From: Sediminivirga luteola
GTDB lineage: Bacteria; Actinomycetota; Actinomycetes; Actinomycetales; Brevibacteriaceae
Length of the DNA stretch: 64,000 nucleotides
Direction of reading: 5' to 3'
Assembly: GCF_014639315.1 (NCBI RefSeq)
Contig: NZ_BMFY01000001.1
Coordinates: 1-64,000, forward strand
Part shown: in pieces, positions 42,490 to 45,396 of the stretch
Position numbering within the stretch: the stretch's first letter is position 1
How the letters are laid out: each line of letters starts with the position of its first letter
Position numbers and translations under genes: made by a program
Notes under the pieces: generated by a model
What the model was told of the DNA's origin: nothing
Databases searched by the model: none
What the model saw: only the letters and a program-made list of their open reading frames with translations

Positions 42490-42530
42490 CAGCGGCCCTC
42501 GGCCTTGAGTTCAGTGGCCCTCGGCCTTGA
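42490..42530 (-). repeat. Tandem duplication of the ppa 3' end
   Basis: The 19-nt string CAG(T/C)GGCCCTCGGCCTTGA is present at 42512-42530 (the last codons and stop of ppa) and again at 42490-42508, 22 bp further on, with one substitution. The duplicated copy lies beyond the stop and repeats the KAEG(H/R)-stop coding sequence. Confidence 0.7.
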
Positions 42531-42999
42531 AGCGCTCCTGGGAGGCGCGGACCTCGGCCTCGGCCTCGGCGCGGCCGACCCAGCTGGAGCCCTTGACGAA
42601 CTTGCCCGGCTCCAGGTCCTTGTAGCGCTCGAAGAAGTGCTTGATGGCGTCCAGGGTGAACTGATCGACGTCCGTGACGTCCTGGATGTTGTCCCAGCGC
42701 GGGTCCCCGGCCGGCACCGCGAGCACCTTGTCGTCGCCGCCGGCCTCGTCCTCCATCTTGAACATGCCCACCGGGCGCGCGTCGACGAGCACGCCGGGGA
42801 AGACGGGCGCCGGGAGCAGCACGAGCACATCGAGCGGATCGCCGTCCTGGCCCAGGGTGTCCTCGATGAAACCGTAGTCGGCGGGGTACTCCATGGAGGT
42901 GTACAGGTAGCGGTCGAGCTTGACCCGCCCGGACTCGTGATCGACCTCGTACTTGTTGCGCTGTCCGCGCGGGATCTCGATGGTGGCTTCGAACTCCAC
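42511..42999 (-). CDS. ppa: Inorganic pyrophosphatase
   Basis: 162 residues; family I Mg-dependent PPase that hydrolyses PPi released by biosynthesis. GTG 42999 is chosen because AAGGAG ends 7 nt upstream and the protein then begins with the expected [20 protein letters not shown]. Active-site residues are all present: '[24 protein letters not shown]' contains the DxDPxD core, with '[17 protein letters not shown]' and '[15 protein letters not shown]' following. Length is typical of actinobacterial PPases. Confidence 0.96.
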
Positions 43000-43149
43000 T
43001 GCTGCACTCCTTAGGGGTGTCGACTGGACGGTGAATTCCTCATTTACTGTATCCCGGCAGCACCGCACGCAGGCACGATCACTGCGGCCTGCAGCCCGCG
43101 CGCGAGTTCGTCTTTCGAGGCGGGGACAGTCACGGATGCCGCGCTGGGT

Positions 43150-43470
43150 TCAGCGCTGGGAGGTCACCGGCAGCCCGGCTTCGGCCCAGGCCTCGATGCC
43201 GCCGCTGAGGTTCCGCACCTGCTCGTACCCGGCCGCGCTGAGCGCCTCGGCCACGTTCCCCGAGCGGTACCCGGACTTGCAGTGCAGCACGAGCGGCTCA
43301 TCGCGGGGAAGCTGGACCGTCCCGGAGAGGATGTCGTGCATCGGCACGAGGCGGGCGCCGGGGATCGCCTGCGCGGCGTGCTCATCGGGTTCGCGGACGT
43401 CGATGAGCGTGACGGAGCCCGAGTCGAGTTCTGCTTTCAGCTCGGCCGGGGAGACTTCGGCGATGGCCAT
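43150..43470 (-). CDS. Single-domain rhodanese
   Basis: 106 residues; sulfurtransferase-fold protein with active-site loop CKSGYRSG (catalytic Cys) and the flanking 'VTLIDVREPDEHAAQAIPGARLVP' and 'NLSGGIEAWAEAGLPV' segments. Single-domain rhodaneses of this size bind persulfide or act in thiol metabolism; partner unknown. AAGGAGG lies 9 nt before the ATG, on the complement of the promoter that drives the divergent carboxypeptidase unit. Confidence 0.9.
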   Translation of the reverse strand: MAIAEVSPAELKAELDSGSVTLIDVREPDEHAAQAIPGARLVPMHDILSGTVQLPRDEPLVLHCKSGYRSGNVAEALSAAGYEQVRNLSGGIEAWAEAGLPVTSQR

Positions 43471-43485
43471 CTGAGAGGCCCTCCT

Positions 43486-43491
43486 TACACT
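43486..43491 (+). promoter_or_regulatory. Leaderless -10 (TACACT) of the dac unit
   Basis: TACACT, then 7 nt, then GTG 43499, the start of a 17-codon mini-ORF that ends on the carboxypeptidase start codon. Confidence 0.5.
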
Positions 43492-43498
43492 GGGAGGC

Positions 43499-43552
43499 GT
43501 GAACCGGTCACAACCCTATCTGCTGACGCGCCCCGCAGGGGAGACGCGGTGA
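43499..43552 (+). CDS. Leaderless 17-residue mini-ORF coupled to dac
   Basis: GTG 43499 follows a TACACT -10 by 7 nt. The frame encodes MNRSQPYLLTRPAGETR and stops with TGA at 43550-43552, overlapping the carboxypeptidase GTG (43549-43551) as GTGA. The peptide has no recognisable function or attenuator codon run. If translated, it would deliver ribosomes to the downstream start by coupling. It could also be a chance product of the promoter spacing. Confidence 0.35.
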   Translation: MNRSQPYLLTRPAGETR

Positions 43553-45396
43553 CCGATCGCGCAACGGAGCCGCCGGAGGAGCAGCCGCGAACAGAGGGCA
43601 GCGCGGAGACGCCCCCCGCGGAGACACCGCCTGAGGACGTTCCTTCGCAGCCTTCCAGCGATACAGGCGATACGGGCAATACAGGCGATGCAGGTGGTGC
43701 AGTCGATGCGGCCGCTTCAGCCGGGCCTGGCCGGGAGGCTCCCGCGGCCGAGGCTGAGGGACAGCCCGGGCAACAGCCGTCGTCGCCTCAACCGCAACCA
43801 GCGGCGCCCTCGGCTCAACCCCAGCTGACGACGCAGCCGTTTCAACCCCAGCCGACTATGCAGCCGTTTCAACCCCAGCCGCGCACGCGATGGGAGGCAC
43901 GACTGGCGGAGGCCGACCCCCAGTCAGCGCGCGGGTCGCAGAACGAGAGACAGGACCGTGCCTCGCGCGGCCGCCGGCGTGGGCGCGGCTGGCGATGGAC
44001 CGCCGGCATCCTGACGGTCGTCGCGCTGCTAGGCGGCTACGGCTACGCCGATGTGGTCGACGCGGTGCCGGGAGTGCTCACCGCCGAACCGCCGCGTCCG
44101 GATCCTGTGCCGTTCCCCACCCCCACCCTGCGCGTGACCACCACGGAAGGCGCGACGCCGGTCGGCGATGCCGCGCCGACGCCCGCGGCGGAGTCCGTGA
44201 ACGACCTGGTGGAGGAAGCGCTGGCCGACGGCCTTCCCGCCAGCACCGGCATCGACATCCGCGATGCCCTCACCGGGGACGTCCTCTACGCCCGCGACGC
44301 CGGGGCGAGCCGTACCCCGGCCTCCACCACGAAGGTGCTCACCGCGGCGGCGGCGCTGGCCGAGGCCGGGGCGGAGACCCGGTTGCCCACCACTGCCTAT
44401 CTCCACGCGCCGGAGAACGAAGCAGATCCGCCGCTGGTCATCCTGCACGGCGGCGGCGATGTCCTGCTCGGCGCGGGGGAGAGCGATCCCGATGCGGTGG
44501 ACGGGCACGCCGGACTGGCCAGCCTCGCGCAGGAGACCGCGCATGCCCTGCGCGGCCACGGTATCGACGAGGTCGCCGTCGCCCGTGACGAGAGCCTCTT
44601 CTCCGGCGCCGACTTCCACCCCACCTGGGACCGCGCCGACATCGGGCACGGATTCGTCGCCCCGCTGTCCCCGCTGATGATCGCCGCCGGCCGCACCGGG
44701 GAGGGCATGCCCCGCAGCGACCGGTCCGGAGAGGACGCCGCGCGCGCTTTCGCCGAGGCGCTGCAGGACGCCGGCATCGAGGTGCGCGGGCACGACGGTT
44801 CCGCACAGGCCGCCGACGCCGACGATGAACTCGCGCAGGTGCTCTCCGCGCCGCTGCGTGCTCAAGCGGAGCATCTGCTCGTCACCTCGGACAACGTCGT
44901 CTCCGAGGCGGTCGGCCGCCAGGTCGCGCTCGCGCGGGGCGAGGAAGCCGACTTCGCCGGAGCCGCGCGCGCGGTGGAGGATGCCATGGCGGACCTGGGC
45001 CTGGAGGACGAGGACGGTGCGATCTCCCTGACCGATCTGTCCGGTCTCAGCTACGACAACCGCATCCCGCCGGAAGCGCTCAGCCGCCTGCTGGTCCTGG
45101 CTGTCGCCGGCGAAGGCCCGCTGGCGGAACTGCCCTCGCTCATGCCGGTCGGCGGCTGGTCCGGCACGCTCTCCTCGCGCTACCGCAGCGAGGAGAGCGC
45201 CGACGGCGCCGGGATCGTCCGCGCCAAGACCGGCAGCCTGCGCTCGGTCACCTCTCTGGCGGGGACGCTGGTGACCGCCGACGGGCGCCTGCTGGCCTTC
45301 GCGGTGATGGGGGACGGCCTCGAACCGGCCGAGGTCTCCCGCGCCCGCCCTGCCATGGACGCCCTGCTGGCCGGCCTGGCCCGCTGCGGCTGCTGA
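43549..45396 (+). CDS. dacB: D-Ala-D-Ala carboxypeptidase/endopeptidase (PBP4 type)
   Basis: 615 residues. GTG 43549 has GGGGAG upstream. A 135-residue Pro/Gln/Thr-rich cytoplasmic region, including two PFQPQP repeats, precedes one membrane helix (about 148-165), so the catalytic domain is outside the cell. The peptidase S13 triads are intact: SxxK in PASTTKVL (Ser259, Lys262), SxN in TSDN (447-449) and KTG in AKTGSL (Lys560). It trims peptidoglycan stem peptides or cross-links. The lone Cys pair at the very end (RCGC) is unusual. Confidence 0.9.
   Translation: MTDRATEPPEEQPRTEGSAETPPAETPPEDVPSQPSSDTGDTGNTGDAGGAVDAAASAGPGREAPAAEAEGQPGQQPSSPQPQPAAPSAQPQLTTQPFQPQPTMQPFQPQPRTRWEARLAEADPQSARGSQNERQDRASRGRRRGRGWRWTAGILTVVALLGGYGYADVVDAVPGVLTAEPPRPDPVPFPTPTLRVTTTEGATPVGDAAPTPAAESVNDLVEEALADGLPASTGIDIRDALTGDVLYARDAGASRTPASTTKVLTAAAALAEAGAETRLPTTAYLHAPENEADPPLVILHGGGDVLLGAGESDPDAVDGHAGLASLAQETAHALRGHGIDEVAVARDESLFSGADFHPTWDRADIGHGFVAPLSPLMIAAGRTGEGMPRSDRSGEDAARAFAEALQDAGIEVRGHDGSAQAADADDELAQVLSAPLRAQAEHLLVTSDNVVSEAVGRQVALARGEEADFAGAARAVEDAMADLGLEDEDGAISLTDLSGLSYDNRIPPEALSRLLVLAVAGEGPLAELPSLMPVGGWSGTLSSRYRSEESADGAGIVRAKTGSLRSVTSLAGTLVTADGRLLAFAVMGDGLEPAEVSRARPAMDALLAGLARCGC

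Follow-up and report, generated by a model that had tools for sequence, protein, structure and literature searches.

In the window, a stretch of 64,000 nucleotides from Sediminivirga luteola, a 17-codon mini-ORF with a GTG start and a TGA stop (positions 43499..43552, + strand; MNRSQPYLLTRPAGETR) precedes and overlaps a dacB-like gene, and we consider, with a confidence slightly short of even, that it is a translated, lineage-specific mini-ORF coupled to dacB whose peptide has no function. The initial annotation had described TACACT-N7-GTG, a 17-codon frame and an overlap of its TGA with the dacB GTG as GTGA, and all of this is directly observed in the sequence: TACACT (43486..43491, + strand) is followed by gggaggc, a GTG at 43499-43501, 17 codons reading (M)NRSQPYLLTRPAGETR, and a TGA at 43550-43552 that overlaps the dacB GTG at 43549-43551. 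TACACT is a −10-like element of the presumed dacB promoter; TANNNT located 6-8 nt upstream of RTG is a common start signature in this genome. GGGGAG, a Shine-Dalgarno-like sequence that by eye matches AGGGAG at five of six positions, lies within the mini-ORF, 5 nt upstream of the dacB GTG (43538..43543, + strand).

The following course of events would fit this layout. The dacB mRNA most likely starts at or beside G43499 from the TACACT promoter, so that its 5′ end would be GTG. This GTG would be read by leaderless initiation, as expected in this lineage, and the 17-codon frame would be translated at some level, with translation ending on the dacB start. The ribosome might then restart at dacB, aided by GGGGAG, or its passage might open a predicted helix over the dacB start. 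The peptide itself would have no role, and the mini-ORF, if active at all, would be a constitutive ribosome-delivery leader and not a sensor. If it is translated, the class of coupled leaderless small ORFs would extend from mycobacteria to Brevibacteriaceae and would there be linked to a cell-wall enzyme.

Evidence for this reading comes from the leaderless start signature, which we observed directly in about half of the genome. The sample covered 1.86 Mb (48% of the genome) with 1,108 ATG/GTG gene starts, and genes were called with a simple script of our own instead of a published gene finder. For the spacing histogram, which spans 0-30 nt, the starts were selected without use of the −10 element and had at least 30 nt free upstream. 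TANNNT was located 6-8 nt upstream of ATG/GTG at 132 sites. The first part of the sample (640 starts) contained 37, 36 and 9 sites at spacings 6, 7 and 8, in total 82, versus 48 over the 28 other spacings, and the second part (468 starts) contained 30, 10 and 10 sites, in total 50, versus 41 over the 28 others. The presence of this peak in both parts indicates that the genome has many leaderless-type starts. The spacing of 7 nt in front of the mini-ORF falls within the peak, which here serves as a proxy for the mapped transcript start used as a criterion by Shell et al.

The sequence around the mini-ORF start also resembles that of other leaderless-like starts. A C is present at −1 in 39 of 54 such starts, as it is at position 43498; these 54 starts were picked with a bonus for a −10 element at 5-8 nt, and none fell at 5. 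The extended −10 of the mini-ORF ranks 19th from the bottom among these 54, a score that 26% of 426 TANNNT sites also reach. Its best −35 match is 4/6, which is equalled by 63 of the 426 TANNNT sites and by 12 of the 54 leaderless-like starts, and a full sigma-70 promoter was not called at the dacB leader. Initiation at 43499 is thus plausible, TANNNT at 6-8 nt from ATG/GTG being a frequent leaderless signature of the genome; the signature permits leaderless initiation at this position without proving it. As for the earlier proposal that the mini-ORF is both leaderless and coupled, the −10 element, the spacing of 7, the C at −1 and the stop/start overlap all fit it, and the transcript start and the translation are what we infer from them. 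Translation of the mini-ORF is plausible since the leaderless signature of the genome fits and a coupled stop/start is present.

The alternative that survives best, and that we hold to be quite possible though not probable, is a chance frame in an ordinary leader: dacB would use its own Shine-Dalgarno sequence, the transcript would start elsewhere or its 5′ GTG would be idle, and the 17 codons would be meaningless. Overlaps of this kind are frequent. In 464 kb there are 284 gene starts preceded by 30 nt or more of free DNA, and in 102 of them an A follows the start codon (75 ATG, 25 GTG and 2 TTG). An upstream ATG/GTG frame of any length ends in an overlapping TGA at 49 of the 284 starts, and a frame of 5-50 codons does so at 39, which is about 1 in 7 gene starts, so that an overlapping upstream mini-ORF is not to be taken as design. 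In contrast, the leaderless signature of the genome, at 6-8 nt, is genuine. Of the 49 overlapping upstream frames, 2 have a −10 element at 6-8 nt, and upstream ATG/GTG codons after TANNNT, gene starts excluded, are hardly in excess at the leaderless spacings (17 over the three spacings of 6-8 nt versus 126 over 28).

We also counted exact overlaps among mini-ORFs of 5-50 codons after TANNNT as a function of spacing, with gene starts selected by a procedure that favoured a −10 element at 5-10 nt. In the first 1.064 Mb, 6 of 19 mini-ORFs at spacings 6-8 overlapped exactly versus 19 of 125 elsewhere (one-sided p = 0.08), and in the next 0.8 Mb these numbers were 4 of 15 versus 15 of 104 (p = 0.20). 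The pooled counts are 10 of 34 leaderless-spaced mini-ORFs versus 34 of 229 controls (odds ratio 2.4, one-sided p = 0.036), the dacB case of the window being one of the ten. The enrichment of the coupled leaderless-spaced class is therefore weak, and at the control rate about five of the ten cases would be expected by chance, a point in favour of the chance reading. The direction of the RTGA excess agrees with a report that RTGA-coupled leaderless small ORFs are over-represented in M. tuberculosis (PMC4633059), but the effect seen here is weak. Narrowing the class to spacings 6-7 gave 6 of 13 in the first part of the sample, a choice made post hoc, and it was abandoned when the second part gave 2 of 7 (p = 0.31). 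The same layout as at dacB was seen at L172:6930 (− strand; contig C1:250930), where TAGCAT-N6-GTG opens a frame of 10 codons (MTSSYLRLRA) that ends as ATGA on the next gene; by eye, this gene resembles a LysE/RhtB-type exporter.

Three further observations speak for a chance frame. A coding signal is absent from the mini-ORF (synonymous log-odds of −2.57 for its 17 codons; GC1-3 of 0.71/0.59/0.76), and the frame is not conserved in the relatives examined, as described below. Moreover, TACACT lies in part over the complement of the rhodanese Shine-Dalgarno sequence at 43480-43487 (by eye), so that part of TACACT is constrained for another reason. This has to be weighed against the fact that the −10 element, the spacing of 7 and the C at −1 all match the leaderless-like promoters of the genome, and that TACACT-N7-GTG at 43499 is the sole TANNNT-N6-8-RTG in the gap between the rhodanese gene and dacB. 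A translated coupled mini-ORF remains the reading that we prefer.

The mini-ORF was not found in any of the relatives compared. The conservation set consisted of 49 other loci, 36 from the family (out of 59 other family genomes) and 13 from the order; together with the window these are 50 of the 58 genomes with a dacB match, eight with such a match and 23 other family genomes lying outside the set. The family comprises 60 genomes, Brevibacterium among them, and the genus is represented by one genome, that of the window, so that the comparison applies to the family and order levels. TANNNT-N6-8-ATG/GTG was directly observed to be absent upstream of dacB in all 36 family loci and all 13 order loci. 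The idea that the frame is kept in relatives, which the initial annotation had named as the check that could overturn it, thus fails at the family level, with 36 of the 59 other family genomes compared. By a loose count, 47 of the 50 loci, window included, do have some TANNNT in the interval that separates the divergent gene from the dacB homology. A DNA search with 43471-43570 against the 60 family genomes gave, apart from the region itself, two short matches (24 and 19 bases), and a single-protein scan across named genomes found no relative. In an alignment scan, of which the best 80 of at least 576 confirmed stretches were considered, the top matches were from Brevibacterium and none among the matches listed exceeded 48% identity, very near records being possibly missing; the upstream regions of these 80 loci stand outside the 49-locus count.

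The synteny of the locus, also directly observed, bears on this absence. The divergent ppa gene, encoding inorganic pyrophosphatase (42511..43005, − strand, start codon provisional; Pfam E 3.8e-59), adjoins dacB in 48 of the 49 other loci, the exception being L036, where there was no ppa match within the stretch examined. A divergent rhodanese-domain gene (43150..43470, − strand; Pfam Rhodanese E 4.4e-22) lies between ppa and dacB in the window, and a rhodanese match beside dacB was found in only 1 of the 50 loci, the window itself, which indicates that the dacB upstream region was altered in this lineage. Since the genus is represented by one genome and the upstream DNA was altered by the rhodanese gene, the absence in the family is compatible with a young functional element. 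In Brevibacterium, short overlapping frames ahead of dacB (for example ATG-AGA-..., with TTGA at the end) were weighed as a possible conserved coupled mini-ORF, but were rejected because they start off the leaderless spacing. By eye, dacB apparently begins with TTG in L020, L016, L023 and similar Brevibacterium, where a short ATG frame (for example ATGAGAATGAGAGCCCGCGCTTGA) ends as TTGA on the start. These overlapping short frames seem, by eye and uncounted, to be tied to a purine-rich stretch before the dacB start.

The identification of the downstream gene as a PBP4-type carboxypeptidase was upheld. The dacB-like gene (43549..45396, + strand) codes for a D-Ala-D-Ala carboxypeptidase of the S13 type whose N-terminus is long and of low complexity (Pfam Peptidase_S13 E 6.1e-67), and the residues S259, T261 and K262 (SxTK, here STTK), S447-D-N449 (SDN) and K560-T-G562 (KTG) are invariant in an alignment of eight sequences. 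We take STTK, SDN and KTG to be the SxxK, SxN and KTG motifs of S13/PBP4-type carboxypeptidases. Its start is less clear-cut, and a second alternative, which we regard as unlikely, is that the gene begins downstream, for example at ATG 43858, in which case the mini-ORF would not touch the real start. The 103 codons of 43549-43857 lack a coding signal (synonymous log-odds −30.5; GC3 of 0.65 versus 0.89 in 44008-45393), our home-made start caller favoured ATG 43858 over 43549, and by eye the dacB N-termini of several relatives look shorter. On the other hand, 43549-43857 is free of stops in the dacB frame only, with two stops in each other forward frame, the Shine-Dalgarno match of ATG 43858 is poor (3/6), and open frames suggest long N-terminal dacB extensions in two family genomes (L028 and L036). 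A low-complexity N-terminus would explain the poor codon signal of this region. In several of the background counts the dacB start was fixed by hand at 43549, the caller's own choice being 43858. The 5′ part of the gene, 43549-43857, consists of about 100 low-complexity codons rich in Pro, Gln, Glu and Asp with a low GC3, and by eye it is in places repetitive at the DNA level (gatacaggcgat... and caaccccagccg...).

The predicted structure of the leader offers a possible physical link between the two frames. In the minimum-energy fold, CGGTCAC at 43505..43511 (+ strand), made up of bases of mini-ORF codons 3-5, would form a 7-bp helix with GTGACCG at 43549..43555 (+ strand), which comprises the dacB start codon and the next four bases. 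The predicted unpaired probability of the dacB GTG is 0.004 in the free leader and rises to 0.352 if the first 15 nt are kept unpaired, as a ribosome would keep them. A start equally buried was found for 3.2% of 345 background starts and 4.2% of 500 shuffles of the leader. The overall fold of the leader is no stronger than that of shuffled sequences (z of −0.24, and of +0.20 for a short stretch), and the Shine-Dalgarno-like sequence of dacB is ordinarily exposed, at the 35th percentile. That the helix may keep the dacB start hidden as long as no ribosome occupies the 5′ GTG is suggested by a 3-4% tail, a hint obtained after several structural tests. The stronger version, a start-occlusion switch in which codons 3-5 pair with the dacB start and dacB is translated only after leaderless loading on the 5′ GTG, appears quite improbable to us. 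If true, conditions favouring 70S leaderless over 30S Shine-Dalgarno initiation would directly raise the level of a cell-wall carboxypeptidase. Start occlusion was also considered as a rule of the coupled class and discarded, since it is not common to the ten coupled leaderless-spaced cases (p = 0.35).

An attenuator leader peptide combines a run of codons for the regulated product with an intrinsic terminator. A regulated leader peptide, that is an attenuator or stall sensor tuning dacB to a cell-wall or translation signal, is very improbable, because its location ahead of a cell-wall gene and the predicted helix, which would hide the dacB start and open on occupancy of the 5′ end, are set against a 17-codon peptide with no residue run, a stretch (42950-43700) in which no terminator was predicted, a leader that Rfam did not match (one weak match lay elsewhere) and a lack of conservation in the relatives examined. 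We found no evidence for a sensing or attenuating role of the mini-ORF. The initial annotation had seen in it what would be a distinct regulatory design; that view found no support, as the class is already published for mycobacteria, the arrangement is present in none of the 49 other loci, and neither a residue run, nor a terminator in 42950-43700, nor a coding signal was found.

The closest counterparts are the coupled leaderless small ORFs of Mycobacterium (PMC4633059), described as having 5-50 codons, an RTG at the transcript start and an RTGA overlap. The dacB mini-ORF is like them in its 17 codons and its GTGA, provided that dacB starts at 43549, and in having an RTG at its presumed transcript start. 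It differs in belonging to another family of the Actinomycetes, in being known from sequence alone and in not having been found in the relatives examined, whereas for some members of the Mycobacterium class the architecture is reported to be kept in relatives, which is supportive and not defining (PMC4633059). In mycobacteria, RTG at the transcript start was reported to be necessary and sufficient for leaderless initiation (Shell et al. 2015, PMC4633059). E. coli mRNAs with a 5′-terminal uAUG, such as ptrB, likewise have a 5′ start codon ahead of a main gene with its own Shine-Dalgarno sequence (Beck et al. 2016, PMC4965119); there the codon is AUG and here it is GUG, and RTGA overlap is apparently not a criterion in that report. 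Reporters and toeprints indicated that the 5′ codon of these mRNAs can change downstream expression, and the effect at ptrB was reported not to depend fully on translation of the upstream frame (PMC4965119). The mini-ORF further resembles the pervasively translated short ORFs of M. tuberculosis, which are short and mostly without codon signal (Smith et al. 2022, PMC9094748). Those were seen by ribosome profiling, whereas the dacB mini-ORF is predicted, and most of them are considered probably not functional (PMC9094748). Ribosome delivery by a short upstream ORF is one proposed use of coupling (review, PMC12548453). A literature search for dacB with a leaderless upstream ORF, which covered open-licence papers, found no paper.

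A conserved leaderless coupled leader is present elsewhere in the same genome, and it illustrates how a conserved element of this kind appears in this family; at dacB none of this is seen. Two CNNM/CorC genes (Pfam) on contig C3 have near-identical leaders, located at L256:1511-1666 and L207:11909-12066, in which TAGCAT-N6-ATG opens a 47-codon frame that ends at the gene start; in relatives the leader lies at L257-L270. The general pattern is TANNNT-N6/7-ATG-NNN-AGTGACAGT, followed by a GCCGGC/GCCGGC hairpin whose 5-nt loop is variable, within a frame of 38-47 codons that stops at the gene start. DNA related to this leader was found in 30 of the 60 family genomes, that of the window included, and the exact core pattern adds G008 and G010. 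Among 149 order genomes the exact core pattern matched four, all within this family. Rfam gave no match at the element, and literature searches showed no description of it among the papers listed. The 13 other family genomes that were read have TANNNT 6-7 nt before the ATG and a frame of 38-40 codons whose end lies at most a few bases from the CNNM start. A 6-bp hairpin, with a 5-nt loop that varies, is shared by the seven distinct leader sequences, those of the window's genome included. The CNNM/CorC leader may be an undescribed 5′ regulatory element.
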